The notes beneath the pieces are model-generated. The model did not search any database. It saw only the letters and a list, made by a program, of their open reading frames with translations, and was not told where the DNA came from. The translations under genes and the position numbers were made by a program. Source: a virus. Taken from it: 64,000 nucleotides of DNA. The DNA lies in the IMG/VR virus record IMGVR_UViG_3300044630_004692, positions 1-64,000 of that record; one strand, 5' to 3'. This document shows, piece by piece, positions 1 to 13,856 of the stretch (position 1 is the stretch's first letter; each line of letters opens with the position of its first letter).

Positions 1-12
1 CATACGGATAGA

Positions 13-40
13 GATTAGGTCCCTGGTTTCACACCTAATC
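13..40 (+). other. hairpin upstream of tRNA-Ala
   Basis: GATTAGGT (13-20) is complementary to ACCTAATC (33-40) with a 12-nt loop, just before tRNA-Ala. No T-run follows, so it is not a classical terminator. It may be a processing stem or the tail of an upstream RNA cut off by the window edge. Confidence 0.4.
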
Positions 41-45
41 CATCT

Positions 46-118
46 GGGGGATTAGCTCAGTTGGTAGAGCGCCTGCTTTGCAAGCAGGATGTCAGCGGTT
101 CGAGTCCGCTATCTTCCA
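46..118 (+). tRNA. tRNA-Ala (TGC)
   Basis: The acceptor stem GGGGGAT pairs with ATCTTCC (two G-U pairs), with discriminator A118. D arm, anticodon loop with TGC and a T arm with TTCGAGT are all standard. CCA is not encoded. It reads GCA codons, as expected of an AT-rich phage supplementing a GC-rich host. Confidence 0.95.
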
Positions 119-138
119 TTCCCACTATATTATTTTCT

Positions 139-396
139 ATGGGAGACTCAGTTAAGTATCAAATTGAAAAAGCTGAACATGCACTTCGTTCTGCACTAGA
201 ACTAGGTGCTATGCATGAAGACCCTTATACTCTTCATACTATTGTAGAAGCTTTACAAAAGATAGGTTACATTATTATAATGGGTAAAGTTCAAACATCA
301 ACGGAAGATTTTAAAGTAGAAGGTGGAATTCCTTTTGCAACTAATTATCCAGATGTAAATGATGTTGTTTCTCCAGACATTAATTTTGTTACCTAA
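139..396 (+). CDS. hypothetical protein, 85 aa
   Basis: The ATG at 139 lies 20 nt after tRNA-Ala; starting further upstream would run into the tRNA. The N-terminal two thirds look helical and acidic, with an alternating hydrophobic pattern, and the C-terminal third is Pro/Asp/Asn-rich. No signal peptide, membrane segment or recognisable motif. Short genes between tRNAs are usual in cyanomyovirus variable regions. Function unknown. Confidence 0.75.
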   Translation: MGDSVKYQIEKAEHALRSALELGAMHEDPYTLHTIVEALQKIGYIIIMGKVQTSTEDFKVEGGIPFATNYPDVNDVVSPDINFVT

Positions 397-449
397 ATAA
401 AATCAATACTTCTCAAGCCTATCAACGATGCTCAAACAGAGAAGTCACT

Positions 450-521
450 GCGGAATTAGTTCAGTGGTAGAACGTCAGCCTTCCAAGCTGAATGTCAGGG
501 GTTCAAGTCCCCTATTCCGCT
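450..521 (+). tRNA. tRNA-Gly (TCC)
   Basis: The acceptor stem GCGGAAT pairs with ATTCCGC. The anticodon stem TCAGC/GCTGA holds the loop CTTCCAA with anticodon TCC, and the T loop is TTCAAGT. CCA is not encoded. A possible leader stem, ACTTCTC near 409 with GAGAAGT near 440, lies upstream. Confidence 0.95.
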
Positions 522-542
522 TCCTCAAACATTGAGGTTATT

Positions 543-698
543 ATGTCACTTATTTCACAAAAAGATAGGGACCTTGCTATTGAAGCACTGGACTTCTATC
601 TCTTCAATAAAAAGTTTGACTTTACTGAAGCAAAACGAGCAGAAGTAAATGCTCTTATTAATTGGATTAAATTGGAAAAATCTAAGCATGAAAATTAA
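543..698 (+). CDS. hypothetical protein, 51 aa
   Basis: A short, charged, probably helical protein starting at the ATG 21 nt after tRNA-Gly. Its 3' end overlaps the next gene by 11 nt, suggesting translational coupling. No recognised domain. The start inside the tRNA that a longer frame would need is not plausible. Confidence 0.7.
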   Translation: MSLISQKDRDLAIEALDFYLFNKKFDFTEAKRAEVNALINWIKLEKSKHEN

Positions 699-852
699 TC
701 TTTGGTATTGTGAAACGATGAATCAATGGAGGTGGACTCTTGTAGACGACCACCGCCCTGTTATCAAAATGGAATCAGGTCAACAACCTGACCTTCGCGT
801 AGCAATGAATGACATTGCAAACACTGTTGAATATATGTTATCTCATCAGTGA
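688..852 (+). CDS. hypothetical protein, 54 aa
   Basis: Starts at the ATG at 688 inside the end of the preceding gene, the tight packing typical of this phage. It is rich in Trp near the N-terminus (residues 5-16) and ends six bases before tRNA-Asn. No domain recognised. Confidence 0.7.
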   Translation: MKINLWYCETMNQWRWTLVDDHRPVIKMESGQQPDLRVAMNDIANTVEYMLSHQ

Positions 853-858
853 TTTCAT

Positions 859-930
859 TCCAGAGTAGCTCAGTGGCAGAGCTGGCGGCTGTTAACCGCT
901 CGGTCGCAGGTTCAAATCCTGCCTCTGGAG
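859..930 (+). tRNA. tRNA-Asn (GTT)
   Basis: Acceptor TCCAGAG pairs with CTCTGGA. The anticodon stem GGCGG/CCGCT carries the loop CTGTTAA with anticodon GTT, and the T loop is TTCAAAT. It is followed at once by a small inverted repeat (TGCTATA/TATAGCA, 932-948), perhaps a 3' processing signal. Confidence 0.95.
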
Positions 931-954
931 TTGCTATACAATATAGCAAAAAAT

Positions 955-1032
955 GTAGGAACCAAAACCTCTTCCTGGTCATGGCTAGGTAATGTGAAGA
1001 GGGAGGCTTAAGGTGATGCTCTCCCCTCCTAC
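955..1032 (+). ncRNA. candidate three-way-junction RNA in an intergenic stretch
   Basis: The 132 nt between tRNA-Asn and the next gene hold no gene but fold well by eye. Stem 1 is GTAGGA 955-960 with TCCTAC 1027-1032. Stem 2 is CCTCTTC 968-974 with GAAGAGG 996-1002, capped by CTGG/CTAG. Stem 3 is GGGAG 1001-1005 with CTCCC 1021-1025. Stems 2 and 3 compete for two bases. It is tRNA-sized and ends in TACCA, but has no tRNA D or T arm. I do not recognise it as a known riboswitch; it could be the 5' leader of the next gene or a free RNA. Confidence 0.4.
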
Positions 1033-1062
1033 CACTAAATACATGTATCGGTAGATACAGTC

Positions 1063-1326
1063 ATGAAATACAAAATCTCCTCAAAGTATTGTTATTACAA
1101 TAATGAAATTGTAGAGATGTATTTCATTAATAATGTTCCATTTACTTTTAATGAACTTCCTACAATAATGCAGGAAGACCCATATGTTCAAGTTGAAGCA
1201 TCTTCTAATCAAGAATATACTCCAGAAGATTTATATAGAACTTCGTTTTATTTAATTGATGAAGAATGTCATCCTTGTTTATTCCCAGTAGATTTAGAAA
1301 ATCCTGAGGACATGCCAAATGATTGA
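1063..1326 (+). CDS. hypothetical protein, 87 aa, upstream of the cpeT-like gene
   Basis: An acidic protein rich in Tyr and Asn. It starts at ATG 1063 about 30 nt after the structured region and overlaps the start of the cpeT-like gene by 8 nt, so the two are probably co-translated. Two Cys residues lie in the last third (near residues 69 and 72). No domain recognised. An accessory role to the lyase is only a guess from position. Confidence 0.75.
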   Translation: MKYKISSKYCYYNNEIVEMYFINNVPFTFNELPTIMQEDPYVQVEASSNQEYTPEDLYRTSFYLIDEECHPCLFPVDLENPEDMPND

Positions 1327-1840
1327 TAAATTTTTATCATACTTAGAAGGAACGTTTGATAATAAAACTCAAGCATATACCTATCCTGGTGCATTTGGTC
1401 ATATTCAAATTACTCATAAGATTATAACAAATAATCTTGTATATGGAGAACAAGGATATGTTTATTGCAATGGAACTCCATATAGACAATTTGTATTAGA
1501 AATTTTTCAGGATGATAATTTTATTATTGTACAAAATTACAAATTAAATAACCCAGAAAAATTTTTAGGATTCAATAATTTAAATTTGATGACAAGCTCA
1601 GATATTTCATTAAATGAAAAATGTAATATCTATTTCACCGAAAGAAATAATATATTTTATGGTGAAAGTATTGGGTGTGAATGTTATGTTAATTGGTCTA
1701 ATACATTAACCTATCTACAAACATATTCTCATCTTTCATCTGAATATTATTTTGTTGAGGATATTGGAATTAGTATGGAAACTGGAAAACAAATTTGGGG
1801 TTCCAGAAATGGAAAATTTCATTTTTATAAAATAAAATAA
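1319..1840 (+). CDS. cpeT: CpeT/CpcT-like phycobiliprotein lyase
   Basis: CpeT/CpcT proteins attach or chaperone bilin chromophores on phycobiliproteins. The 173 residues follow the family pattern: an N-terminal LxGxFDNKTQA segment (about residues 8-20), a central PYRQFVLEIF block (near 53-62), then CNIYF and FYGES around 101-116, GCECYVNW near 118-125 and a C-terminal WGSRNGKFHF segment. It is slightly short for host members. Cyanophages are known to carry cpeT, thought to keep phycobilisomes working during infection. It sits among tRNAs and small genes rather than beside other pigment genes. The substrate cannot be told from sequence alone. Confidence 0.85.
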   Translation: MIDKFLSYLEGTFDNKTQAYTYPGAFGHIQITHKIITNNLVYGEQGYVYCNGTPYRQFVLEIFQDDNFIIVQNYKLNNPEKFLGFNNLNLMTSSDISLNEKCNIYFTERNNIFYGESIGCECYVNWSNTLTYLQTYSHLSSEYYFVEDIGISMETGKQIWGSRNGKFHFYKIK

Positions 1841-1843
1841 TAC

Positions 1844-1917
1844 GCCTCTGTAGCTCAGTTGGATAGAGCAGGGCTTTTGTAAAGCTCAGGTCGCATGTTC
1901 AAGTCATGTCAGGGGCT
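1844..1917 (+). tRNA. tRNA-Thr (TGT)
   Basis: Acceptor GCCTCTG pairs with CAGGGGC (one T-G pair). The anticodon stem GGGCT/AGCTC carries the loop TTTGTAA with anticodon TGT, and the T loop is TTCAAGT. It begins 3 nt after the cpeT-like stop codon, so the two are probably one transcript. Confidence 0.93.
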
Positions 1918-1936
1918 TAAAATAAATATTAATTCT

Positions 1937-2149
1937 ATGTACGAAAATCAAACCGAGTTTGAATGGCATTTACTTGACTTTGGAAAAAAAGTAGAGTATA
2001 TTCTTGCTGCAGAAATGGCTGGTAGAGTTAATGCCAATGATGCCTATAAACAAATTAAAGATTTATTTGAAGACCTTAAAAAGTTTCGTAAAAAAGAAAA
2101 GAAGCAAGATAATCCTTTAGATTACGATAACATTCCTGAGAGGTATTGA
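1937..2149 (+). CDS. hypothetical protein, 70 aa
   Basis: The ATG at 1937 is the first one clear of tRNA-Thr. The protein is predicted all-helical, with a Lys-rich stretch near residues 45-58 and an acidic, Pro-containing tail. No motif that gives a function. The next start codon follows the stop within 3 nt. Confidence 0.75.
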   Translation: MYENQTEFEWHLLDFGKKVEYILAAEMAGRVNANDAYKQIKDLFEDLKKFRKKEKKQDNPLDYDNIPERY

Positions 2150-2151
2150 TT

Positions 2152-2739
2152 ATGTTTACACAAGGACTGGTTGAAACTGAAAACGAAGACCCTGGATTTG
2201 AGATTACTCATCTCTCATTCCGCAAAAGAAGGTCAGAGAATATGTATGGTGGTCCTGTGCATTACTATGTTGGCAACATCGTATTTCGTTTGACTAACGA
2301 GGATGCGAAGCGTCGCATGGAATACATCATGCAAGAGAACGAGAGAGTTCGTGTAGCACCAGACGAGGAGTTACACAACAAGTATTACGATGGTCTTCAC
2401 TTCAAGTTCAATACTGAAGAACGAGAAGAGGATGCTGTAGAAGATGAGGATGGACAAAAGTTCTATCCATTAGATATTATCAACAAAGAAGGCATCAAAG
2501 ATGAGGATGTATTCATCTGGGGATACCGTCGTAACATGGACCCTCTACATGACTTCATTGAATACATTGAGAAGTTTGATTGTTACAGAATGCACGAATA
2601 CTTTCAAGACACACCAGTAGTTCGTGGTATAATACAGTATCTCCAAGACATGAAAGATGGTAAACCTAATCCAAGCCGCACGGTCTATCATGAGCAGTTC
2701 CTCTCAACGCTCACAAACCTCTGCTGGTGGTGGGACTAG
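2152..2739 (+). CDS. hypothetical protein, 195 aa
   Basis: An acidic soluble protein (Glu/Asp-rich around residues 100-125) ending in a run of Trp. I prefer the ATG at 2152 over a TTG two codons upstream because a GAGAGG ribosome site lies 8 nt before it. Codon use is slightly GC-richer than its neighbours. It overlaps the next gene by 50 nt in a different frame. No recognised family. Confidence 0.75.
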   Translation: MFTQGLVETENEDPGFEITHLSFRKRRSENMYGGPVHYYVGNIVFRLTNEDAKRRMEYIMQENERVRVAPDEELHNKYYDGLHFKFNTEEREEDAVEDEDGQKFYPLDIINKEGIKDEDVFIWGYRRNMDPLHDFIEYIEKFDCYRMHEYFQDTPVVRGIIQYLQDMKDGKPNPSRTVYHEQFLSTLTNLCWWWD

Positions 2740-2863
2740 AACCTGCTCCAAATGCAAAACTGAGAAACCCCTTGACAAGGACCACTACCAAGTGGTAAAA
2801 TACTTTCGTTCTGGTTTCTCCTATTATTGCAATGAATGCAATAAACCCAAACCCAAGGATTGA
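2690..2863 (+). CDS. small CxxC...CxxC zinc-ribbon-like protein, 57 aa
   Basis: After a Ser/Gln-rich N-terminus it has two CxxC pairs, CSKC near residues 20-23 and CNEC near 48-51, with an Lys-Pro-rich tail. This resembles the zinc-binding half of HNH/endonuclease-VII-like proteins, but no HNH catalytic residues follow. No later ATG or GTG exists in frame, so the 50-nt overlap with the upstream gene seems real. Its stop codon overlaps the -35 of the tmRNA promoter. Confidence 0.65.
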   Translation: MSSSSQRSQTSAGGGTRTCSKCKTEKPLDKDHYQVVKYFRSGFSYYCNECNKPKPKD

Positions 2864-2888
2864 CAAGATACTCTGTTCGTGGTATCAT
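2860..2888 (+). promoter_or_regulatory. sigma70-like promoter of the tmRNA
   Basis: TTGACA (2860-2865), 17-bp spacer, TATCAT (2883-2888) preceded by TG at the extended -10 position. Predicted start about 2895, exactly where the tmRNA acceptor piece would begin. Confidence 0.8.
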
Positions 2889-2894
2889 AAATAT

Positions 2895-3069
2895 GTCGGT
2901 TGGAAACCCAACCTAACTCATTCTGGACTGGGGTTCGACTCCCCACACCTCCATTCACGGGGGTGAACTGGTATCGACGGGGTGGGGGATGCGAGAACAA
3001 ATCTCAACAACATCGTAAAATTTGAGAGGACTTCTGTTGCTGTATAGTAACGAACTCTGACTCACAATC
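2895..3069 (+). ncRNA. ssrA: circularly permuted (two-piece) tmRNA
   Basis: tmRNA with its halves swapped. The 3' half comes first: the T arm TGGGG-TTCGACT-CCCCA (2929-2945), then the acceptor strand CACCTCC (2946-2952) and discriminator A2953. A 5-nt spacer follows, then the 5' half starting GGGGGTG (2959-2965), which pairs with that acceptor strand and keeps the G3-U70 pair read by alanyl-tRNA synthetase. Next come the conserved TGGTATCGACGGGG D-like segment and a tag frame NNIVKFERTSVAV from 3006, ending in TAG TAA (3045-3050). Cyanobacterial tags share NNIVKF. Permuted tmRNAs are established in marine picocyanobacteria. The role is rescue of stalled ribosomes. Piece ends are estimates. 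Confidence 0.9.
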
Positions 3070-3087
3070 GGGGGGAATTCCCCCCTT
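3070..3087 (+). terminator. intrinsic terminator after the tmRNA
   Basis: GGGGGG (3070-3075), loop AATT, CCCCCC (3080-3085), then TT. The stem is strong and the T-run weak. It closes the tmRNA transcription unit. Confidence 0.7.
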
Positions 3088-3113
3088 CAAAATATAATAT
3101 AAATTGTTTAAAC

Positions 3114-3476
3114 ATGGCAATTAAATACAATCTAACAATTGATAAACTTGAAAAAATTACATCACTTAATGAATTTAATAATGTAATTAATGCAGTATCA
3201 GTTGTAATTAATGCATATTCTGAAGAATATCCAGATATTACATACGAATGTAGTGGAGATATCAAACTAGATGTTTCTAAAATTATTGAAGACCAATTTA
3301 TTTCTTTTGAAGAAATTACACAGGAAGTAGTTCTTGATTGGATTCTTAAAAAGGAAGGAGTAGAAACTGTAGAAGAATTTTCTTTATTAAAATTTTCAAT
3401 TGCCAACATTCAATCTCGCATCAATAATCTAAACGAAAAAGAATTAATTGATGTAAATTGGACAATAAGTAATTGA
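3114..3476 (+). CDS. hypothetical protein, 120 aa
   Basis: Starts at ATG 3114, 27 nt after the tmRNA terminator. Acidic, mixed alpha/beta by composition, beginning with a short beta-like segment (residues 2-9) and largely helical after residue 60. No Cys-rich motif except one Cys near residue 45, and no membrane segment. Not recognised. The stop is followed at once by the first copy of the 3484 repeat family. Confidence 0.8.
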   Translation: MAIKYNLTIDKLEKITSLNEFNNVINAVSVVINAYSEEYPDITYECSGDIKLDVSKIIEDQFISFEEITQEVVLDWILKKEGVETVEEFSLLKFSIANIQSRINNLNEKELIDVNWTISN

Positions 3477-3483
3477 TATATAG

Positions 3484-3520
3484 TCTCGGAGTAGACTTTA
3501 AACTCTGCCCTGGTCGGGAG
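3484..3520 (+). repeat. imperfect ~37-nt repeat, copy A
   Basis: Shares the core TCGGA...GACnTTAAA...TGCCCTGGT with copies at 3726-3761 and 3783-3820. It lies between two small genes. The spacing of TTAAA and CTGGTCG resembles the anticodon-to-variable region of the tRNA-Leu at 33773, so a tRNA-derived origin is possible. Confidence 0.5.
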
Positions 3521-3538
3521 CAACCCCCTTTAATTCCT

Positions 3539-3736
3539 ATGGAAAATACCCAAATCTGTTCACTCAAGTTATCAAGAGTCTGCTCTGAAATTGAAAGTGT
3601 AATTAATACACTTAAACAAATTCAAGTCCATATGGACTTGAAAACTTATGTTAAAGTTGATGAGACAATTAGAAAACTTGATGAACACAAACAATATATC
3701 TGGCAAATATATAAAGATATTGATGTCTCGGAATGA
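3539..3736 (+). CDS. hypothetical protein, 65 aa
   Basis: Starts at ATG 3539; a longer frame would need a TTG start at 3473 and would translate repeat copy A, so I reject it. The product is helical, with a leucine/isoleucine heptad-like pattern over residues 8-50 that suggests a coiled coil. Its last four codons overlap repeat copy B. Function unknown. Confidence 0.65.
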   Translation: MENTQICSLKLSRVCSEIESVINTLKQIQVHMDLKTYVKVDETIRKLDEHKQYIWQIYKDIDVSE

Positions 3737-3761
3737 CTTAAAAACTTGCCCTGGTGGAGTC
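3726..3761 (+). repeat. imperfect ~37-nt repeat, copy B
   Basis: Begins TCTCGGA like copy A and contains GACTTAAAAACTTGCC and CTGGTGG. It overlaps the end of the 65-aa gene and then runs into non-coding sequence. Confidence 0.5.
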
Positions 3762-3889
3762 AAACATGACCCAATTTAGTCCTCGTCGGATTGGACATTA
3801 AATATGCCGACTGGTGCGGATGAGGAGTTTTTTAACTCCGCCGAGTTTCCAATTTTCTCGTAAACAAAATTGGTGGCGAGCCTGCAAAG
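3737..3889 (+). other. non-coding stretch with serial hairpins
   Basis: No gene is seen. It contains repeat copy C (3783-3820), a GGAGTT-TTTT-AACTCC hairpin (3824-3839) and a CCAATTTT/AAAATTGG hairpin with a 9-nt loop (3849-3873), and runs up to a strong promoter. It may be the structured 3' end of the upstream transcript or a small RNA locus. Confidence 0.5.
3783..3820 (+). repeat. imperfect ~37-nt repeat, copy C
   Basis: TCGTCGGATTGGACATTAAA, then TGCC and ACTGGTGCGGA. The most diverged of the three copies, about 57 nt after copy B. Confidence 0.45.
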
Positions 3890-3923
3890 GGGGTTGACAA
3901 CCCCTAACAGCTCCTAGTATAAT
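3890..3923 (+). promoter_or_regulatory. strong sigma70-like promoter with the -35 in a hairpin
   Basis: TTGACA (3894-3899), 18-bp spacer, perfect TATAAT (3918-3923). The -35 sits in the inverted repeat GGGGTT-GAC-AACCCC (3890-3904). Predicted start about 3930, a few bases before the tRNA-like element, so it should drive that RNA and probably the SLH/porin-like gene. Confidence 0.8.
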
Positions 3924-3933
3924 AGGAGCATAT

Positions 3934-4003
3934 GGAAGTGAAGCCAACTGGAGCGGCACGGAGACAATCCATACAGTAGTTGGTTCGATTCCAACCACTT
4001 CCA
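3934..4003 (+). ncRNA. tRNA-like element with an abnormal anticodon arm
   Basis: Acceptor GGAAGTG/CACTTCC, D-like stem GCC/GGC and a perfect T arm GTTGG-TTCGATT-CCAAC are present, with discriminator A. The 17 bases where the anticodon arm belongs (3958-3974) do not form a 5-bp stem with a T33 loop; only GGA/TCC can pair. Total length is 70 nt, slightly short. It is either a decayed tRNA with a small deletion or a non-decoding tRNA mimic. The promoter directly upstream shows it is meant to be transcribed. Confidence 0.6.
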
Positions 4004-4008
4004 CACAA

Positions 4009-4016
4009 TATAAATA
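4009..4016 (+). promoter_or_regulatory. T4-late-type promoter box TATAAATA
   Basis: An exact match to the T4 late promoter core, 25 nt before the start codon of the SLH/porin-like gene and right after the tRNA-like element. It would give this gene late expression in addition to the upstream promoter. Confidence 0.6.
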
Positions 4017-4040
4017 AATTGTTGTAATTCTTAACATACT

Positions 4041-4901
4041 ATGATGATTCGTTCATTTATTGCTGCTGGTGTTGTTGCTGCCTCTATGGCTGCCCCTGCC
4101 ATGGCACAAGTCACCAGTGTTTCACAACTGCGTGATGTTCAACCAACTGAGTGGTCATACCAGGCTATCTCTAACCTAGTATCACGTTATGGTTGTGTTG
4201 CTGGTTTCCCTGATGGTACTTTCCGTCCTGGTGAACCTGCTACTCGTGCTCAACTTGCTGCACTAACCAACGCATGTCTGGACCGTATTAGTGAATTCCA
4301 AACTGCTGCAGATGCACAGCTAGCTGCTGCTCTTCGTGCAGAATTTGCTAAAGAACTAGGTGCTACCAATGCCCGTGTAAGTGCTCTTGAACTTGCTGCT
4401 GCTCAAAAAGCTCAAGGTGTAGGTAACTATCTTGGTCTTGGCGTACTGCTAAACAAGCAGGGTGTTGATGGTGATGGTAAGTCTGTTAACAGCACTATCT
4501 CTGGTGGTACTCTCCAGGCTCGCTATGCTGTAAAGACTTTTAGCAACCAGAATGCTGTTTCTGTTCGTCCTTACATCAACGCTGTAGCTGGTCCTAATAG
4601 CAACATCGGTGCTGCTGGCGGTGCTATGGTTTCCTATGACTGGAGCATCTCTCGTGCTGCATCTGGCGTTAGCCGTGCTAACATCTACGCAGGTGCTGGT
4701 TATCAAGTTCCTTTCGTAAATGGTGTTGAAGCAAATGCTCAACCTGCTGTTGGGACTGGTACTGCCGTTCTTGCCCTTGGTCTTGAAGGTCGTATCACCA
4801 ACTCTCTGGTTGGTTTTGCTGACCTGAAGTTCCCGACTCAAAATGCTGGTGGAGGTTCTTACTCTCCTGTGTTTACCACTGGTCTGGGCTTCAAGTTCTG
4901 A
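4041..4901 (+). CDS. SLH-domain outer-membrane porin-like protein, secreted
   Basis: 286 residues. There is a clear signal peptide (residues 1-22, ending AMA before Q). A single S-layer-homology domain follows (about 32-82), with PDGTFRPGEPATRAQL at its centre. Next is an Ala/Glu-rich helical segment (about 86-120), then a beta-rich region ending in FTTGLGFKF with a terminal Phe, the usual outer-membrane barrel signal. Cyanobacterial SLH porins have this order but are commonly larger, so the barrel here looks shortened. Codon use is GC-richer than the surroundings, like psbA, pointing to host origin or high expression. Possible roles: altering envelope permeability or blocking superinfection (inference). 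A second ATG one codon on is equally possible. Confidence 0.8.
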   Translation: MMIRSFIAAGVVAASMAAPAMAQVTSVSQLRDVQPTEWSYQAISNLVSRYGCVAGFPDGTFRPGEPATRAQLAALTNACLDRISEFQTAADAQLAAALRAEFAKELGATNARVSALELAAAQKAQGVGNYLGLGVLLNKQGVDGDGKSVNSTISGGTLQARYAVKTFSNQNAVSVRPYINAVAGPNSNIGAAGGAMVSYDWSISRAASGVSRANIYAGAGYQVPFVNGVEANAQPAVGTGTAVLALGLEGRITNSLVGFADLKFPTQNAGGGSYSPVFTTGLGFKF

Positions 4902-4914
4902 TTTTCTGACAATC

Positions 4915-4938
4915 GGGGGTTGACAAACCCCCTTTTTT
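4915..4938 (+). terminator. intrinsic terminator after the SLH/porin-like gene
   Basis: GGGGGTT (4915-4921), loop GACA, AACCCCC (4926-4932), TTTTTT (4933-4938). The loop and left arm contain the -35 of the hli promoter. Confidence 0.85.
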
Positions 4939-4948
4939 CATATATACT
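4920..4948 (+). promoter_or_regulatory. hli promoter nested in a terminator
   Basis: TTGACA (4920-4925), 17-bp spacer made of the terminator's right arm and T-run, TATACT (4943-4948). Predicted start about 4955, 20 nt before the first hli gene. Confidence 0.75.
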
Positions 4949-4974
4949 AATGTAACAATTCTTAATGAACTAAT

Positions 4975-5169
4975 ATGACGGTAACAACTAATGAGCGTGG
5001 GCAAATGAATATGTTTGCTAATGAGCCCACAATGTATTATGAAAACTACGGGATGTATACCCCTTCAGAAATCAAGGAACGTACAAATGGACGCTGGGCT
5101 ATGGTCGGTATTATTGCTGGCTTTATTTCTTATTCTATCACAGGTAAACTATTCTTCGGAATCTTTTGA
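4975..5169 (+). CDS. hli: high-light-inducible protein (Hli), 64 aa
   Basis: Hli proteins are one-helix relatives of light-harvesting proteins that bind chlorophyll and carotenoid and protect photosystem II. The C-terminal half carries the signature: ERTNGRWAMVG (about residues 35-45) with the Glu and Asn/Arg that bind chlorophyll, then one membrane helix and the ending FFGIF. The N-terminal 30 residues are hydrophilic; internal ATGs at 5005 and 5011 are alternative starts. First gene of a short unit running to a terminator at 5396. Cyanophage hli genes are well known and act with phage psbA. Confidence 0.92.
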   Translation: MTVTTNERGQMNMFANEPTMYYENYGMYTPSEIKERTNGRWAMVGIIAGFISYSITGKLFFGIF

Positions 5170-5180
5170 GGAGGAAAACA

Positions 5181-5300
5181 ATGGAAAAAATCTTCACAGA
5201 AAAGGCTGAGCGCCTAAATGGTCGTCTCGCTATGCTAGGATTCGTGGCTGCAGTTGGTGCATATCTTGCAACTGGCCAAGTAATCCCTGGTGTATGGTGA
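5181..5300 (+). CDS. hli: short high-light-inducible protein, 39 aa
   Basis: A minimal Hli of 39 residues: AERLNGRLAMLGF (about 9-21) followed by one membrane helix and the ending QVIPGVW. A strong GAGGAGG ribosome site (about 5169-5175) begins at the stop codon of the upstream hli, so the two are co-translated. It lacks any N-terminal extension, unlike its neighbour, so the pair may form different dimers in the thylakoid membrane. Confidence 0.9.
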   Translation: MEKIFTEKAERLNGRLAMLGFVAAVGAYLATGQVIPGVW

Positions 5301-5301
5301 A

Positions 5302-5388
5302 ATGGGAGAAGTAATTTTTACTACTACTAGTATTACATTTCTAGTTCTTTTATTTCACTCTATCAATAAACTATCTGAAACATATTGA
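5302..5388 (+). CDS. 28-residue single-helix membrane peptide
   Basis: The ATG lies one base after the stop of the short hli gene. The product is one hydrophobic helix (about residues 4-20) with a polar C-terminal tail. Size and topology resemble the tiny subunits of photosystem II or cytochrome b6f, but I find no clear match to PsbI, PsbT, PsbM or PetN. It belongs to the hli transcript, which ends right after it. Confidence 0.5.
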   Translation: MGEVIFTTTSITFLVLLFHSINKLSETY

Positions 5389-5395
5389 TAAATAC

Positions 5396-5420
5396 AGGAG
5401 GTTCAATACCTCCTTTTTTT
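5396..5420 (+). terminator. intrinsic terminator of the hli unit, abutting the endolysin start
   Basis: AGGAGGT (5396-5402), loop TCAAT, ACCTCCT (5408-5414), TTTTTT (5415-5420). The next base begins the endolysin ATG. The left arm is also a perfect Shine-Dalgarno sequence, but too far from that ATG when folded. Confidence 0.85.
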
Positions 5421-6020
5421 ATGTCTATAAAATTCGTTGATGCATCGAAATATGATAAAGGACTTCCTCATCAACTAGATGCATGGGAGTATCTTCAACA
5501 AAATACTCCACCACATGTATTAGTTGAATTTGAGAAAAGATTTAGAAATCAAAAAGCTGATAATTTATATTCTGGAATATCACTGATTAAAGAATTTGAA
5601 AATATTGAATTGGTTGCATACCCAGACCCTAAAACAAAAGGTAAACCTTATACAGTAGGTTGGGGAAGCACTCGTAAGAAAGATGGAACTCCTTTTAAGT
5701 TGGGAGAAAGGATTACCCAAAAAGAAGCAGATGAGCTATTTGATTATCAAATTCAAAATGAATTTCTCCCACAACTTAGAAAGATTCCATACTGGGAGGA
5801 AATGAATGTCAATCAAAGAGGGGCTTTACTTTGCTTTGCTTATAATCTTGGTGCAGATTTCTATGGTTCTCCTGACTTTAATACTATTACACGAGTCTTG
5901 AAGAATAAAGAATGGTCTAAAGTACCAGAAGCACTTAAACTCTATCGTAATCCTGGAACTGATGTAGAGGCAGGATTATTAAGAAGAAGAATTGCTGAAG
6001 GAAAACTTTGGATGAGTTAA
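5421..6020 (+). CDS. phage lysozyme / endolysin (GH24-type)
   Basis: Hydrolyses the glycan backbone of peptidoglycan for lysis. The T4-lysozyme-type catalytic set is visible after an extension of about 50 residues: Glu in LIKEFENIE (near 60), Asp in YPDP (near 68) and Thr in TVGWGST (near 82-86). The C-terminal half has NQRGALLCFAYNLG (near 134-147) and the LRRRIAEGKLW motif at the end. 199 residues, a little longer than T4 gpe. No signal peptide, so it would need a holin. The start abuts a terminator, leaving no obvious leader; translation may depend on read-through transcripts. It converges with the next gene. Confidence 0.85.
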   Translation: MSIKFVDASKYDKGLPHQLDAWEYLQQNTPPHVLVEFEKRFRNQKADNLYSGISLIKEFENIELVAYPDPKTKGKPYTVGWGSTRKKDGTPFKLGERITQKEADELFDYQIQNEFLPQLRKIPYWEEMNVNQRGALLCFAYNLGADFYGSPDFNTITRVLKNKEWSKVPEALKLYRNPGTDVEAGLLRRRIAEGKLWMS

Positions 6021-6340
6021 TCTTCCATCTTTGCTTTTAAACCAAGCAATGCTGTAAGTAAAGTAAATAAAGCATTATATCCCCTGCTCTCGGATTCTTT
6101 GCAGTCCAAGGGTGGGGGATTTACTAATCCACCTAATGCATCTGCTCTTTCCATTGACCCAGGAACCATAAAATTACAATTTACAAATGTAATACCAACA
6201 TATCCTAGTGTTCCTATTACAAGAGTTACAATCAATTTATCCAAAAGGCAAAGACCTTTTCTTTCCTTTTTTGGCTGGTCTCCTGATGAATCTGATAACT
6301 TCTGTTGGTTGTCTTTTTGGTTGTGGTCTTCTGTTTTCAT
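6017..6340 (-). CDS. small membrane protein, possible holin, 107 aa
   Basis: Minus strand, overlapping the end of the endolysin gene by 4 nt. A hydrophilic Lys/Asp/Gln-rich N-terminus (about 1-30) is followed by one clear membrane helix (about 37-58) and a second shorter hydrophobic segment near the C-terminus (about 88-102). I chose the ATG at 6340 because a TGGAG site lies just before it; an upstream ATG at 6355 is possible. Position beside endolysin and topology suggest a holin, but no family is recognised. Confidence 0.6.
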   Translation of the reverse strand: MKTEDHNQKDNQQKLSDSSGDQPKKERKGLCLLDKLIVTLVIGTLGYVGITFVNCNFMVPGSMERADALGGLVNPPPLDCKESESRGYNALFTLLTALLGLKAKMED

Positions 6341-6400
6341 TGAAAACTCCATCATTGGTAATTAATCGTGTAAGTAATAGTCCAACGATAAAAATGGATT

Positions 6401-6592
6401 TCATTTTTGTTCTTGTTTATGAATCCAGGTTTTCAATTCATGCAAATATTCAATAAGTTGATTTGCTTTTTCTTCATGCCAAAAATCTCCAGTAGATAAC
6501 CATTCTTTTCTGTGGTTATCTATAGCTTTTAATATTTGATGTATTGGAGTATTCCAAGGTTCTCTTATAGGAGTATTCCATTCCCTTGGCAT
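6401..6592 (-). CDS. hypothetical protein, 63 aa
   Basis: Minus strand, soluble, Trp-rich, helical in the C-terminal two thirds. The N-terminus contains the short internal repeat WNTPI (residues 5-9 and 13-17). Divergent from psbA across a shared intergenic region. Function unknown. Confidence 0.65.
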   Translation of the reverse strand: MPREWNTPIREPWNTPIHQILKAIDNHRKEWLSTGDFWHEEKANQLIEYLHELKTWIHKQEQK

Positions 6593-6639
6593 GGTGTATA
6601 CTATTATTTTAAGTATTTATTATAATATCTGCTTTGGCC

Positions 6640-6674
6640 CTTGACAGGGCAGGCGACCTGTGGTACTATAAATA
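6640..6674 (+). promoter_or_regulatory. psbA promoter, early and late elements overlapping
   Basis: TTGACA (6641-6646), 17-bp spacer, TACTAT (6664-6669) with TG before it. A T4-late-type TATAAATA overlaps at 6667-6674. The -35 lies in the inverted repeat GCCCT-TGAC-AGGGC. A short GTGAGG/CCTTCAC stem-loop follows in the roughly 60-nt leader. Confidence 0.8.
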
Positions 6675-6738
6675 AGTGGTGAGGGACGTAACATTCCTTC
6701 ACATACTTTTTAATAAACCTTTACGTTCTTTTAAAACC

Positions 6739-7818
6739 ATGACTGCAACTCTCGCCCAACAGCGAAGTGGCAACACTTGGGAACAATTCTGCGAGTGGGT
6801 TACTTCAACCAACAATCGTCTTTACGTTGGCTGGTTCGGAACCCTCATGATTCCAACTCTTCTCGCTGCGACTATTTGTTTCATTGTTGCCTTTATCGCT
6901 GCACCTCCTGTCGATATCGACGGCATCCGTGAACCTGTTGCTGGTTCACTTCTCTACGGCAACAACATCATCTCTGGTGCTGTTGTTCCTTCCAGCAACG
7001 CTATCGGTCTTCACTTCTATCCCATCTGGGAAGCACTTTCACTTGACGAATGGCTTTACAATGGCGGACCTTATCAACTTGTGGTTTTCCACTTCCTTAT
7101 TGGTGTCTTCTGCTACATGGGTCGTGAATGGGAACTCTCCTATCGTCTGGGTATGCGTCCTTGGATTTGCGTTGCTTATTCTGCTCCCGTGGCTGCTGCA
7201 ACTGCTGTGTTTCTTGTTTATCCCTTCGGTCAAGGTTCCTTCTCCGATGGAATGCCTCTTGGAATCTCGGGAACGTTTAATTACATGCTCGTCTTCCAAG
7301 CAGAACACAATATTCTTATGCATCCGTTCCATATGCTTGGCGTGGCTGGGGTATTTGGTGGCAGTCTGTTTAGTGCTATGCACGGAAGTCTGGTCACGTC
7401 ATCGCTAGTGCGTGAAACTACTGAAACCGAATCACAAAACTATGGATACAAGTTCGGACAAGAAGAAGAAACCTACAACATCGTCGCCGCACACGGCTAC
7501 TTCGGACGCCTCATCTTCCAATACGCTTCCTTTAACAACTCTCGTAGCCTACACTTCTTTTTGGCTGCTTGGCCTGTTGTTGGTATTTGGTTTGCTGCTC
7601 TTGGAGTTAGCACGATGGCATTCAACCTGAATGGTTTCAACTTCAACCAGTCTCTGCTTGATAACAACAACCGTGTTATTCCTACCTGGGCTGATATTCT
7701 CAACCGTGCTAACCTTGGTTTTGAGGTAATGCATGAGCGCAACGCTCACAACTTCCCTCTTGACCTTGCTGCTGCTGATATGACCCCTGTGGCACTCACC
7801 GCACCAGCTATCGGCTGA
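6739..7818 (+). CDS. psbA: photosystem II D1 protein
   Basis: Full-length D1, 359 residues, the reaction-centre subunit that turns over fastest in light. Visible landmarks: GREWELS with Glu at the position-130 site (the high-light-type residue, versus Gln), TyrZ in LVYPFGQ, Asp170 in GSFSDGM, the chlorophyll His in NILMHPFH, the Mn-cluster ligands in [14 protein letters not shown], and a C-terminal processing tail. No intron. I chose the ATG giving MTATLAQQ rather than the upstream extension, which lies in the leader. Codons are GC-richer than in neighbouring genes, as in host psbA. Phage D1 is known to replace damaged host D1 during infection. Its unit ends at the 7842 terminator. Confidence 0.98.
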
Positions 7819-7826
7819 TTATCTAC

Positions 7827-7855
7827 TTGACAAATCTCTCCAAACCGTCTACAAT
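7827..7855 (+). promoter_or_regulatory. promoter overlapping the psbA terminator
   Basis: TTGACA (7827-7832), 17-bp spacer, TACAAT (7850-7855). The -10 lies in the left arm and loop of the terminator hairpin, so transcripts from here would begin near 7862 in its right arm. Confidence 0.6.
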
Positions 7856-7871
7856 GTGTAGGCGGTTTTTT
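7842..7871 (+). terminator. intrinsic terminator of psbA
   Basis: AAACCGTCTAC pairs with GTAGGCGGTTT (11 bp with one wobble), loop AATGT, followed by a T-run. Confidence 0.85.
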
Positions 7872-7878
7872 ATTGATT

Positions 7879-8547
7879 ATGAAAAAGTACACTGTTTGGA
7901 TAAGCTGTGGGAATAGTCCATGGGATAGAACATATTTCAATGAGCTAGGTGCAGTACAACTTACACAAGAACAAATCTCTAAATACTTTACTTTTTCAGA
8001 ATCTGGAGAAATTGAATTTGATTCTGATGTTCTATCAGAAGAAACTGATAGAGATTGGAATGACCCAGAGAAAAATTTACCAACTTGGGATGATGTAACA
8101 GAAGGTTGTCTATGTTGGGGTCCAGATGCAGATGACCAATATGTTGGTGTATGTCTTGCAGAAGATGATGAAAATCAAATTTGGGTAAAATCAATTGAAG
8201 AACTACCGTATTATACTTCCAATGATATTCAAGAAGGACTTCATATTCAAGAAGAACATACTGGCGCAATTGCTAGAATTATATCTGAATTGGATGAGCC
8301 TGATGGAGTTTGGATTGTCTATAATTCTTATGAGCGTGGTAGTTATGTTGGAGAATTTGAACTTCCAGATGATGTTCAATTTGACCCATCTAAATTAGTA
8401 GTGAATCTATCTGAAGTTGCAGAATCTTGGACTGTAGTTACTGGATTTGAATATGATGGAGAAGATATTTACTGTGATGGTGATACTATGGGAAAAGGTA
8501 TCGACTGGTATGTTTATTATAAAGGTCAGCTTCATAGCTTCAAATGA
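7879..8547 (+). CDS. hypothetical acidic protein, 222 aa
   Basis: Starts at ATG 7879, eight nt beyond the psbA terminator; a TTG two codons upstream is less likely. Very acidic throughout, with many Trp and Tyr, three Cys near residues 76-91 and no membrane segment. The C-terminal 60 residues look beta-rich. No domain recognised. It may be driven by the promoter embedded in the terminator. Confidence 0.75.
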   Translation: MKKYTVWISCGNSPWDRTYFNELGAVQLTQEQISKYFTFSESGEIEFDSDVLSEETDRDWNDPEKNLPTWDDVTEGCLCWGPDADDQYVGVCLAEDDENQIWVKSIEELPYYTSNDIQEGLHIQEEHTGAIARIISELDEPDGVWIVYNSYERGSYVGEFELPDDVQFDPSKLVVNLSEVAESWTVVTGFEYDGEDIYCDGDTMGKGIDWYVYYKGQLHSFK

Positions 8548-8551
8548 CCCC

Positions 8552-8580
8552 TTGACAAATATTTGAAAATGTCCTACACT
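8552..8580 (+). promoter_or_regulatory. sigma70-like promoter
   Basis: TTGACA (8552-8557), 17-bp spacer, TACACT (8575-8580), 26 nt before the nuclease-like gene. The -35 begins a few bases after the stop of the preceding gene. Confidence 0.7.
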
Positions 8581-8605
8581 AGAATCGTGACTCGATTTAC
8601 ACTGA

Positions 8606-9142
8606 ATGCAGTATAAAGAAATTTTTGAGCGAGAGCACTGGATTAAAATTCTAAACAATGTAGTTGAAGAATTGCAATTTGTACTATCTCGTAATATTAA
8701 ATTAAAACTAAAATCTGAATTAATTTCAGAAATGACTGAAAAACTTGCACAAGAATATTTCTCTAAAATTTATCCAGAGAATGTAAAATGTGCAACTTGT
8801 GATAATGACCCAGACTTAGTATTTGGAACTACTCCAGTTGAAATTAAAGTAGCAAAGTATTGTAATGGCTTTTGCTGGAGAGGAGCTAAATACTCTAAGC
8901 GAGAAAGTGATTACGTTTTGATTGCATGGGATTTTAATAAGTACAACCCAGAAGTAATTCATTTTGCAGTTTATAAAGCATTCCTTTCAACACAAGATTG
9001 GATTGAACAAAAACGTGATAACTATTATGCTAAGTTATACACAATGAATTTATTGTCTAAAAATAAAACACACTTTGCAATTATTGGAGATATTTCATAC
9101 AATAAAAACGATAATGCAAAACCTATCTTTGAGGAAATCTAA
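8606..9142 (+). CDS. PD-(D/E)XK nuclease-like protein, 178 aa
   Basis: The centre shows the restriction-endonuclease-like core: Glu in the first helix region, then DPDLVFG (near residues 69-75) and PVEIKVAK (near 79-86), which supply the D...ExK residues, followed by a strand with YVLIAWD (near 104-110). Two Cys (CATC, near 64-67) precede the core. It resembles small type II restriction-type nucleases found alone in phages. No methyltransferase lies nearby, so a role in host DNA breakdown or DNA processing is more likely than restriction-modification (inference). Confidence 0.65.
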   Translation: MQYKEIFEREHWIKILNNVVEELQFVLSRNIKLKLKSELISEMTEKLAQEYFSKIYPENVKCATCDNDPDLVFGTTPVEIKVAKYCNGFCWRGAKYSKRESDYVLIAWDFNKYNPEVIHFAVYKAFLSTQDWIEQKRDNYYAKLYTMNLLSKNKTHFAIIGDISYNKNDNAKPIFEEI

Positions 9143-9375
9143 TGGAAGACCAAGTAATTGATGTTGAAGCTTCTTCTGTTGTTGATGAACAATTTCCATC
9201 TAATATTAGTATGGAAGTCAATCATGAAGATAAAATTAAAACAGCAGCAGAAATCCGAAATGATTTAAATAAACTAAAAGAACTGAATAGAGAACTAAAG
9301 AAAATCAAAAGATATATGAAGAGTCCTATTCATGCTATTCGACAAATGGATGCAAAAGCTGCCATGAATCAATGA
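9142..9375 (+). CDS. hypothetical protein, 77 aa
   Basis: Its ATG shares one base with the stop of the nuclease-like gene, so they are co-translated. The N-terminal half is acidic; residues 35-60 form a Leu/Lys-rich likely coiled coil. No function seen. The hairpin at 9386 closes the unit. Confidence 0.7.
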   Translation: MEDQVIDVEASSVVDEQFPSNISMEVNHEDKIKTAAEIRNDLNKLKELNRELKKIKRYMKSPIHAIRQMDAKAAMNQ

Positions 9376-9385
9376 TATATAATAA

Positions 9386-9406
9386 GTAACCATTGGTTAC
9401 TTTTTT
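9386..9406 (+). terminator. hairpin plus T-run directly abutting tRNA-Ser
   Basis: GTAACC (9386-9391), loop ATT, GGTTAC (9395-9400), TTTTTT (9401-9406). The next base is the first base of tRNA-Ser. Same layout as at 33747-33772 before tRNA-Leu. Confidence 0.8.
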
Positions 9407-9493
9407 GGAGGGTCAATCCGATTGGCGACGGAACCTGTCTTGAAAACAGTTGAGGTGTTAAAGCCCTTGGGCGTTCGACTCGCCCACCCTCCG
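9407..9493 (+). tRNA. tRNA-Ser (TGA)
   Basis: A class II tRNA of 87 nt. Acceptor GGAGGGT/ACCCTCC, anticodon loop with TGA, a long variable arm, T arm GGGCG-TTCGACT-CGCCC, discriminator G as usual for Ser. No promoter lies between it and the hairpin upstream, so it needs read-through transcription or a start inside the hairpin. Confidence 0.95.
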
Positions 9494-9511
9494 TTAATTG
9501 ATATTATTTTT

Positions 9512-9667
9512 ATGAATGACAAAATGTACAAAGAATTTTGTGAAAAAATTCAACACAGTATTCAAATTTCAATTAAGCATGGTCACAATGATTATGCACT
9601 GGGATTAAAAAAATCTATCATGATTATGAATGAATTAAGACAAAGATATGCAAATGAAACTAAATAA
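9512..9667 (+). CDS. hypothetical protein, 51 aa
   Basis: Begins 18 nt after tRNA-Ser. A short helical protein with His and Lys residues and several Met. No motif. Longer frames would have to be translated through the tRNA. Confidence 0.65.
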   Translation: MNDKMYKEFCEKIQHSIQISIKHGHNDYALGLKKSIMIMNELRQRYANETK

Positions 9668-9693
9668 TATCATTCTTAATCTGAGAGGTTAGT

Positions 9694-9885
9694 ATGGAAA
9701 AATGTCCTGCCTGTGGGATAATTATTGAAGACGGATTAGCTAAATTTTCATACGGGAAACCTGGAAGTTTAGAATATCTTGCTCAACGAGTCTGCCAGTA
9801 TCGTAAAGTAGATTCTCCATGTATAAATCCTTGCTATAATGAAGAGACTGATTATCCTCCTGGATACGACGAACTTCCATTTTAA
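9694..9885 (+). CDS. small Cys-containing protein, 63 aa
   Basis: Starts CPACG near residue 4 and has further Cys near 34, 43 and 47, enough for a zinc site but without the spacing of a known finger. The C-terminus is Pro/Tyr/Asp-rich. GAGAGG before the ATG is a good ribosome site. Function unknown. Confidence 0.7.
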   Translation: MEKCPACGIIIEDGLAKFSYGKPGSLEYLAQRVCQYRKVDSPCINPCYNEETDYPPGYDELPF

Positions 9886-9902
9886 CCTTATTATTAAATA
9901 TT

Positions 9903-10460
9903 ATGATTGAATTAAATGATTTTATAAAAGTTTATGATGATGTATTAGATAATGATACATGTAATCAGTTGATTCAATTTTTTGAATCCAATAACGAAAA
10001 ACAAGAACATATTAATAATAATTATTGTCCTAATTTTATTCAGTTAAACTTAACCGAAAATCACAAACAAAATTCAGACATACAAACTATTCACAATCAA
10101 CTAATAAAAAAGACAATAGAATATAGAGATAAGTATTATGAATTTGTAGATAAAAACGTATTTCCAGAAACTCATGCATTTGAGCAATTTAGAATTAAAA
10201 AATACTTAGACAATGCTGAGTATAGATTTGATACTCATGTTGATGTTACTGATTATAGTTCTGCTAGAAGATATCTTTCTTTTATGTGGTATTTAAATGA
10301 TGTAGAAGTTGGAGGACATACTGTTTTTAAAGATTTTAGTATAGTTCCAAAAACTGGAAGATTACTTGTATTCCCTCCACTATGGTTGTTTCCTCATTAT
10401 GCACAACCTGCTTTGAGTGGAGTTAAATATATTATAAGCACATACTTACACTACAAATGA
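9903..10460 (+). CDS. 2OG-Fe(II) oxygenase (prolyl 4-hydroxylase-like)
   Basis: 185 residues with the double-stranded beta-helix motif order. HVDVTD (near residue 112) gives the HxD iron ligands. YLSFMWYLNDVEVGGHTVF (near 128-146) is the conserved central strand-turn. The distal His is in PHYAQPALSG (near 164) and Lys in GVKYIISTYLHY (near 173-184) is the expected 2-oxoglutarate contact. T4-like cyanophages commonly carry several such genes; their substrates are unknown, with protein hydroxylation or nucleic-acid modification suggested. It overlaps the next gene by 4 nt. Confidence 0.85.
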   Translation: MIELNDFIKVYDDVLDNDTCNQLIQFFESNNEKQEHINNNYCPNFIQLNLTENHKQNSDIQTIHNQLIKKTIEYRDKYYEFVDKNVFPETHAFEQFRIKKYLDNAEYRFDTHVDVTDYSSARRYLSFMWYLNDVEVGGHTVFKDFSIVPKTGRLLVFPPLWLFPHYAQPALSGVKYIISTYLHYK

Positions 10461-10660
10461 CTATGGAAACTAACACTGAGGCTACTGAAAATCTAGAGAT
10501 TGAATTGGATGATGATACTGCCAAGATTGCATCAATCTTAGCAGAAGAAAGAGGTATTACTGTAGAAGAATTACTTCAACAAGTTTTGACTGATGCATTG
10601 GAAAGTGGGTATTTTGATAATCCAGAAAATATAACTGTCAATGATTCTCTAGACGTATGA
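10457..10660 (+). CDS. hypothetical acidic protein, 67 aa
   Basis: Overlaps the oxygenase stop by ATGA. Glu/Asp/Thr-rich N-terminus, then a helix-turn-like segment (about residues 25-50) that vaguely resembles a ribbon-helix-helix helix pair but is too acidic to bind DNA. Function unknown. Confidence 0.7.
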   Translation: MTMETNTEATENLEIELDDDTAKIASILAEERGITVEELLQQVLTDALESGYFDNPENITVNDSLDV

Positions 10661-10818
10661 CACCACAAGTATTTTTTACATTATTAATATGTATACTTTG
10701 GTATGTCTGTTTCACTGACCCGAATATATTAGATTGGGTTACTATTAAAATACAACATTTTTTTGTGTATTTACATTTGCAATATATTAAACTTAAATGG
10801 AAATTTAAGAAATTTTAG
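10657..10818 (+). CDS. small membrane-associated protein, 53 aa
   Basis: Shares ATGA with the stop of the preceding gene. Residues 5-19 are hydrophobic, and the Lys/Phe-rich basic C-terminus (about 44-53) would sit on the inner membrane face. Too short for confident assignment, but the overlap and absence of internal stops favour a real gene. Confidence 0.55.
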   Translation: MTPQVFFTLLICILWYVCFTDPNILDWVTIKIQHFFVYLHLQYIKLKWKFKKF

Positions 10819-10851
10819 CGTCGGGGTGCCCTGGCGCTTTCCTGCTTTTTG

Positions 10852-10860
10852 TGCTATACT
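10852..10860 (+). promoter_or_regulatory. extended -10 promoter
   Basis: TGCTATACT (10852-10860), 25 nt before the glutaredoxin ATG. No clear -35; the TGn extension could compensate. The same TGCTAT form occurs at other promoters in this window. Confidence 0.5.
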
Positions 10861-10884
10861 ACGGAGAGAATCCGACAACTGCCT

Positions 10885-11121
10885 ATGGACATTGTAATTT
10901 ACAGTAAAGAAAATTGCCAGTATTGTGAAAAAATCAAGCAAGTTTTTGGACTCAAACAAATGAATTATGTTGAGTATAAACTTGATGTAGATTTTACTAG
11001 GCAAAATTTCATAGATGAATTTGGAGAAAATTCCACATTTCCTAGAATCTTAATTGATGGGAAATTAATTGGTGGAGCATCTGAAACAATTTCTTATCTT
11101 AAGGAGAACAATTTAGTATGA
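10885..11121 (+). CDS. grx: glutaredoxin
   Basis: 78 residues with the thioredoxin fold order: first strand IVIYSKENC, redox motif CQYC (about residues 11-14), cis-Pro in STFPRILIDG (about 49-59) and GGASE near 61-66. It can supply electrons to ribonucleotide reductase, as T4 nrdC does. The start at 10885 gives the normal glutaredoxin N-terminus; the upstream extension runs into the promoter. It overlaps the next gene by ATGA. Confidence 0.88.
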   Translation: MDIVIYSKENCQYCEKIKQVFGLKQMNYVEYKLDVDFTRQNFIDEFGENSTFPRILIDGKLIGGASETISYLKENNLV

Positions 11122-11828
11122 TTAAAGTGTGTGAAATTTCTTCTTTTATTGATACATTGATGGATAACTTTACTATTCATCGAAAAAAACCTAAAGCTAG
11201 TTTTGTTAAATTTTTACAGTCGCAGGATATTGACCGTAAAACAATTAATGATTATGTAGAAAACAAAACTGGTTTTATTGAAGAGCAAATAAAGGAACTT
11301 GAACTTGCGATGTCTGGTGCTGACCCACAAGTAAAAGAAGGGTACGGAAATTTTCGTAAACCAGAACTTCGTGAATTTAAAGAAATGCTAGAACAAATCA
11401 TTGATGATTTGCATAGCTATAAAGACAGCAAGAAGATTGTACGAAAGCGTAAAACACATTCACCAGAAAAACTAATAAAGTATATTAGTCTTAATACTAA
11501 TCCAATTGTAGTAGGAACAAATTCATATTCTGCTATTCCTACTCTAAGTATTATTGGTGCAAAACATATTTTTCTATACAACGCAGAAAACAGAGAACTT
11601 TCATATTATACTGGTAGGTCTCTTAGTGTTCGTAGAACTTTAATCACTGGATTTGATTCTGAAAAATCTTGGGTTAGGACTATTAGAAAACCAGAAGATT
11701 TTCTGACTGAAATTATTTCTTGTAGTAAATTCAATGTTGAAAATATTGGAACTCTTCTAACTACAAAACCTAAAACTCCAACTGGTCGTACCAATTCAAA
11801 ACAGACATTATTGAAGGTTTTGACATGA
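11118..11828 (+). CDS. hypothetical protein, 236 aa
   Basis: The N-terminal 115 residues are charged and helical; the C-terminal half (about 120-236) is beta-rich and ends basic. No catalytic motif is recognised. It lies between glutaredoxin and a tiny gene, overlapping both by 4 nt, in the region preceding the T4 rnh gene. Probably one of the conserved cyanomyovirus proteins of unknown function. Confidence 0.75.
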   Translation: MIKVCEISSFIDTLMDNFTIHRKKPKASFVKFLQSQDIDRKTINDYVENKTGFIEEQIKELELAMSGADPQVKEGYGNFRKPELREFKEMLEQIIDDLHSYKDSKKIVRKRKTHSPEKLIKYISLNTNPIVVGTNSYSAIPTLSIIGAKHIFLYNAENRELSYYTGRSLSVRRTLITGFDSEKSWVRTIRKPEDFLTEIISCSKFNVENIGTLLTTKPKTPTGRTNSKQTLLKVLT

Positions 11829-11995
11829 ACTCAATTCCAGAAAAATACCTAAATAAAAATGTAAAAGCAATGTTGAGTGGGAGGAGTAAGACTTTTAATA
11901 AAAAGCCTGACTTTCACTTTTCTAGGGTATTTTCATTTCTTCAAAAAGCCTATAAAGTGGAGATAAAAATTTTCGTAGATAACGTACAACCATAA
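11825..11995 (+). CDS. hypothetical basic protein, 56 aa
   Basis: ATGA overlap with the gene before it. Lys/Arg-rich, without Cys. An in-frame GTG or ATG further in would leave almost nothing. Function unknown. Confidence 0.6.
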   Translation: MNSIPEKYLNKNVKAMLSGRSKTFNKKPDFHFSRVFSFLQKAYKVEIKIFVDNVQP

Positions 11996-12018
11996 TCTAA
12001 GGCTAGAGGAGAAAACTT

Positions 12019-12258: not shown

Positions 12259-12261
12259 TTT

Positions 12262-13140: not shown

Positions 13141-13142
13141 CA

Positions 13143-13595: not shown

Positions 13596-13596
13596 C

Positions 13597-13854: not shown

Positions 13855-13856
13855 TT

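Follow-up and report, generated by a model that had tools for sequence, protein, structure and literature searches.

Does a circularly permuted transfer-messenger RNA (tmRNA) gene carried by an uncultured cyanophage encode a working ribosome-rescue RNA, and of what kind? The question arises from positions 2893-3092 of the first 64,000 nucleotides (nt) of a 64,409-base virus record (IMGVR_UViG_3300044630_004692 of IMG/VR), the stretch analysed here and called the window below. An earlier note, made from the letters alone, had read this locus as a phage-encoded, two-piece tmRNA gene, and that identification is borne out. The covariance-model match whose absence the note had said would speak against it exists (RF04321, tmRNA_permuted, at 2919-2989: 60.9 bits, E = 2.5e-9, gathering threshold 47), and ARAGORN calls a permuted tmRNA at 2864-3193.

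Two-piece phage tmRNA is already known as a kind, so this headline was right but not new. ARAGORN has predicted 53 such phage genes, including 50 in phages of marine or aquatic origin, permuted tmRNAs of marine phages thus being already reported, and in the accompanying tree the phages share the cyanobacterial lineage (PMC9004378). In a further survey the unique tmRNA sequences of bacteriophages, all forms taken together, number 79 (PMC11915505), and in Prochlorococcus two separate tmRNA molecules were confirmed by northern blots (PMC1242208). Beyond the earlier note, we find that the window copy is a reduced variant whose tag begins on CUC (Leu). Judged from sequence, the locus is probably a working phage-encoded permuted tmRNA of picocyanobacterial descent that has been miniaturised. 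We also favour, with less assurance, a separate miniature cyanophage class in which a hairpin has taken the place of pseudoknot PK1. This hairpin would sequester the resume codon and expose the A at position -4, A(-4), in its loop, so that the codon could change from Ala to Leu provided that the stem persists. The novelty seems to lie in this miniature subtype, which is unreported as a class in the literature and database summaries covered, the tmRNA database itself being unsearched; it would be the smallest tag-encoding permuted tmRNA known to us.

Results

The core of the gene, on the plus strand like all parts of the locus described here, has the order that the earlier note had given: a T arm and acceptor 3' strand and then, after 5 nt, the tmRNA 5' strand. 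The T arm (UGGGG-UUCGACU-CCCCA, 2929-2945) is recognised by RF04321 and covaries in 5/5 pairs. It runs into the acceptor 3' strand CACCUCC (2946-2952) with A73 at 2953; the intervening sequence UUCAC (2954-2958), expected to be removed by processing, lies between both acceptor strands; and the coding piece begins with the acceptor 5' strand GGGGGUG (2959-2965), placed by RF04321, strand pairing and covariation. The two acceptor strands form the 7-bp stem with G3-U70 that had been proposed (7/7 pairs), and the gene, like host genes, has no encoded CCA. Within the coding piece follow a D-loop-like segment, AACUGGUAUCGAC (2966-2978, inside the RF04321 alignment), the conserved block UCGACGGGG (2974-2982), again as noted earlier, and the P2 5' strand CGGGGUGG (2978-2985), identified by covariation and fold. 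Its partner, the P2 3' strand UCAUUCUG (2918-2925), stands in the acceptor piece and pairs at 8/8 positions, all eight changing on both sides among 14 miniature sequences. Folded freely, 2893-3092 gives a minimum free energy (MFE) structure with the P2, T-arm and acceptor helices plus a hairpin at the resume codon (z = -2.45).

Support for these helices comes from the acceptor, T and P2 strands of 14 distinct miniature sequences and 11 long-form phage or host sequences (n = 25). Within the miniature set all 280 of 280 cells are paired (100%), both partners change in 16 of the 20 pairs, and double-change cells number 64 against a shuffled mean of 16.6, a count reached in 0/500 shuffles; with partners slid by 1-3 columns, 39-55% of cells are paired. 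Across all 25 sequences 99.2% of cells are paired and G3-U70 is invariant (25/25). For P2, the register was picked as the best among four, which favours pairing slightly but cannot account for 8/8 pairs in all 23 miniature rows. Compensatory changes among related phages, the other point on which the earlier note could have failed, are thus abundant in the acceptor, T and P2 stems, and this covariation indicates that the three helices are real, join the two pieces and are under selection.

What sets the window apart is its leader. The distance from UCGAC to the resume codon is 24 nt in the window and 23-25 nt in all miniature copies parsed, compared with 42-43 nt in a typical phage and about 52 nt in hosts, and from P2 to the resume codon the window has only about 17 nt. 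A leader of 23-25 nt leaves no room for PK1; in the window no pseudoknot is present between UCGACGGGG and the tag, where one would be expected, and a hairpin, GAGA-ACAAA-UCUC (2993-3005), stands in its place, with A(-4) at 2999 in the loop and the resume codon in the 3' strand. A scan with the window leader gave 33 IMG/VR contigs and a tag-frame scan added eight, a total of 41, one being the window's twin. The hairpin is able to pair the resume codon in every parsed miniature copy, and A(-4) is present in all those listed. Five stem families were distinguished (UGAGA/UCUCA, UUGAGA/UCUCAA, UGGC/GCCA, GUUUGC/GCGAAC and GUUCGU/GCGAAC). In 12/12 representatives the resume codon is predicted to be paired (0.96-1.00) and A(-4) to be unpaired; for the window the paired probabilities are 0.98 and 0.00, respectively.

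The resume codon of the window, CUC rather than the usual but not obligatory GCN, is common to 33 related contigs. Stem and codon switch together across phages: where CUC (Leu) has replaced GCN, the leader carries a matching GAG. When leaders and codons were exchanged in silico, 7/8 leaders formed the hairpin with a codon of their own type (CUC or GCN) and with no other; the exception is the window leader, which forms a 4-bp stem with GCG or GCA as well.

A tag frame had also been claimed, and it is present at 3003-3047, running from CUC at 3003 to UAG at 3045-3047 and encoding LNNIVKFERTSVAV; its frame, its length and the A at 2999 are homologous to those of 13 other distinct tags. All 14 distinct tags (13 miniature ones and the long-form L064) have 14 codons, the same frame and the same stop. 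Arg at codon 9, which the search had not fixed, is kept through CGC, AGG and AGA, third positions vary most, and the codon differences divide into 338 synonymous vs 266 nonsynonymous. Such a pattern of substitution indicates that the tag frame is under coding selection. The tags end in VAV or VAA in the phage set, and in AA in all 66 host tags listed. Two other frames were rejected: the tag given by ARAGORN (GGNSPLQNII) is located past the conserved frame, where homology gives CUC..UAG at 3003-3047, and resumption at GCG 2991 (ARTNLNNIV...) would place a G at -4, all relatives aligning at CUC or GCN before AAC AAC.

The flanks of the gene are more variable. A sigma-70-type promoter, TTGACA-17-TATCAT, lies at 2860-2888, upstream as the earlier note had it, and by eye S-CAM3 and AG-345-P14 have TTGACA and a TA-rich -10 element at the corresponding place. 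The acceptor piece opens with a hairpin, GGUUGG-AAAC-CCAACC (2898-2913), present in both MFE and centroid folds; relatives carry hairpins of differing sequence at this position (by eye). A possible stop hairpin, GUUGCU-GUAU-AGUAAC (3036-3051), surrounds the stop codon in the MFE fold; in relatives the stop-codon stem covaries at the Val wobble base, and the register of the window is shifted. Of the terminator claimed earlier, the hairpin stands (GGGGGG-AAUU-CCCCCC, 3070-3085, from sequence and fold) and the U-tract does not: UUCAAAA follows the GGGGGGAAUUCCCCCC hairpin, which a terminator scan of the window did not detect. Relatives keep a U-tract behind the equivalent hairpin.

In comparison with the picocyanobacterial permuted tmRNA (cyano_tmRNA, RF01851; ssrA of Prochlorococcus and of marine and freshwater Synechococcus), the related host gene to which the earlier note had pointed, the window shares the permuted order, the lack of encoded CCA, G3-U70, UCGACGGGG, GGAC before the T arm and the tag core NNIV.F.R. 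The host form has its leader of about 52 nt, PK1-type pairing, an extra pseudoknot after the tag, a GCN resume codon and the tag ANNIVRFSRQAAPVAA, whereas the window has 24 nt, a hairpin, CUC and a tag ending in ...SVAV. A further comparison is with long-form cyanophage tmRNAs, of which we found unannotated copies in S-CAM1, S-CAM3, S-SSM7, Sf-FS3, AG-345-P14 and S-CRM01; the annotation tables examined for long-form phage loci list no tmRNA, and the AG-345-P14 record is without any annotation. These are likewise phage-borne, with the same tRNA-like core, a spacer of 4-9 nt in most and, in the copies inspected, a promoter at the window's place. They differ in a leader of 42-43 nt in most, a hairpin well upstream of the resume codon, and a resume codon of GCN, or of GTA in L283 and others; the marine ones keep a 3' pseudoknot. 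The two-piece tmRNAs of methylophage Melnitz and of pelagiphages are also phage-encoded, permuted and marine, but are of alphaproteobacterial type, with a predicted glutamine riboswitch in the 3' domain (PMC9004378).

Some variation was seen alongside. In the miniature tmRNAs L250, L256, L257 and L258 the intervening sequence measures 53-64 nt, vs 4-6 nt in most others, and in some of them a long hairpin is apparent in it. The long-form L283, with its GTA (Val) resume codon, encodes the tag VNNIVAFSRQTVSV. In L243, L261 and 20/117 loci of one scan (e.g. L283 and L296), GGCAGUR replaces the T loop UUCGANU, the tags being of cyanobacterial type; the D-like loop of these cyanophage tmRNAs reads ..AGAAUCGAC instead of ..GGUAUCGAC. 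T- and D-loop types seem to have been exchanged as a pair, perhaps from an alphaproteobacterial-type tmRNA. ARAGORN made no call on the two such loci checked.

The contig is that of a cyanophage, with psbA at 6676-7818 and six tRNA genes, and over 1-20000 Synechococcus phage S-CREM1 ranks first among its megablast relatives. This nearest isolate over the tRNA/psbA region has no RF04321 match and no miniature motif, and scans of the phage database gave no cultured phage with the miniature form. Photosynthetic reaction-centre genes are present in 7/18 contigs tested, and many miniature copies lie inside arrays of 20-30 tRNA genes. A gp23 search for T4-like status matched nothing anywhere, the controls included. 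For the 120-aa protein encoded downstream (3114-3476), only the twin contig (L067/L006) matched. Several candidates were discarded: the S-SRM01 match is a tRNA-Ala and not a tmRNA, L262 from the tag-frame scan is a chance match, and the first tag-based viral scan gave mostly chance matches, only L211 and L006 being real.

Most miniature loci receive no tmRNA call from ARAGORN, and where it makes one the tag is wrong; only 3/11 miniature loci tested pass the RF04321 threshold, the others scoring 32-43 bits where rescanned. The miniature form is therefore likely to be under-counted in phage genomes.

Elsewhere in the window, a wcaG RNA (RF01761, 52 bits) lies at 3777-3887, upstream of a porin-like open reading frame (4041-4901), and an abiF RNA (RF03085, 44.8 bits) at 409-445, directly before a tRNA-Gly, an arrangement shared by S-CREM1. 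The tRNA-Ser(UGA) at 9407-9492 scores 47.1 bits against a tRNA-Sec threshold of 47 and is most likely an ordinary tRNA-Ser.

Discussion

If the locus works as a tmRNA, a single transcript would carry the acceptor piece first (5' hairpin, P2 3' strand, T arm and acceptor 3' strand) and, after the 5-nt spacer, the coding piece (acceptor 5' strand, D-like loop, P2 5' strand, resume hairpin, 14-codon tag and 3' hairpin). Host tRNA enzymes would excise the spacer and add CCA, the host alanyl-tRNA synthetase would charge the RNA through G3-U70, and host SmpB would bring it to stalled ribosomes. There A(-4), unpaired in the hairpin loop, may set the frame, with the resume hairpin substituting for PK1 and opening on entry into the A site; the ribosome would then add Ala-LNNIVKFERTSVAV and stop. 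By such a route the phage could keep ribosomes recycling late in infection independently of the host gene, and we infer, as the earlier note did, that its copy might control or replace host ribosome rescue.

Published work in E. coli makes a reduced form of this kind plausible: A86, which corresponds to position -4, is essential, while PK1 is replaceable and can be reduced to a hairpin or a single strand with tagging retained. Several points nevertheless weigh against our interpretation. The inactivity of the E. coli mutant A86C has been ascribed, as a proposal, to pairing around the resume codon, so that decoding might be impeded when the resume codon is paired. Seven phage records, including fragments, yielded no SmpB, and without a phage SmpB function relies on host SmpB accepting the RNA. 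The search patterns that yielded the miniature copies predetermine some tag bases and, in the CUC group, some of the hairpin as well, so that conservation there reflects ascertainment; the stem changes between groups and Arg at codon 9 are free of this. The window hairpin has only 4 bp and alone is not significant (shuffle P 0.13), and the five stem families, with a Fisher combined P of about 5e-5, are not fully independent.

The last of these points bear on the alternative that survives best, although we still regard it as unlikely, namely that the resume hairpin is a roleless by-product of a short leader in an RNA that acts like a tmRNA with PK1 deleted. Shuffle tests on individual sequences are weak (P 0.03-0.2 for most), E. 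coli can do without PK1, and some hosts have a 3-bp pairing, CGU-AACA-GCG, at the same position; on the other side, each of the five stem families forms 3-7 bp with the resume codon that it carries, codon and stem switching together, and four longer phage leaders are without such a hairpin.

Less probable again is a decoy or inhibitor, an RNA that is charged and enters ribosomes, where its hairpin-locked resume codon blocks or slows host trans-translation. Phage DS6A provides a precedent in a tmRNA without a coding sequence, likewise a reduced phage tmRNA, which inhibits the tmRNA of its host (PMC11915505), and the proposal made for A86C is the reason that we give this explanation some weight and do not hold a working tmRNA for more than probable. 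The DS6A RNA differs, however, in having no tag frame, and a decoy would need neither a tag nor a conserved unpaired A(-4), while the frame, length, stop and residues of the tags found here are conserved with synonymous change.

That the gene is a decaying pseudogene, an ordinary host tmRNA recently captured by a phage, is very improbable and already largely refuted by covariation: the stretch from UCGAC to the tag measures roughly half of that in hosts and the U-tract of the window terminator is gone, but the reduced form recurs in 41 contigs of diverged sequence with full compensatory change in every helix, and its CUC-type motif occurs in 0/399 host-order genomes, 331 of which have the long-leader motif.

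Nearly all work on the selection of the tmRNA reading frame has so far used E. coli mutants. The miniature form is a natural experiment on the same question, with PK1 gone, the leader halved, the resume codon changed and paired, and A(-4) retained. Should the RNA work, it would separate the requirements of trans-translation from habit and provide a natural test of how the resume frame is selected. For the cyanophages, many of which have near-complete tRNA sets, it would mean that they carry their own ribosome-rescue RNA within that kit.
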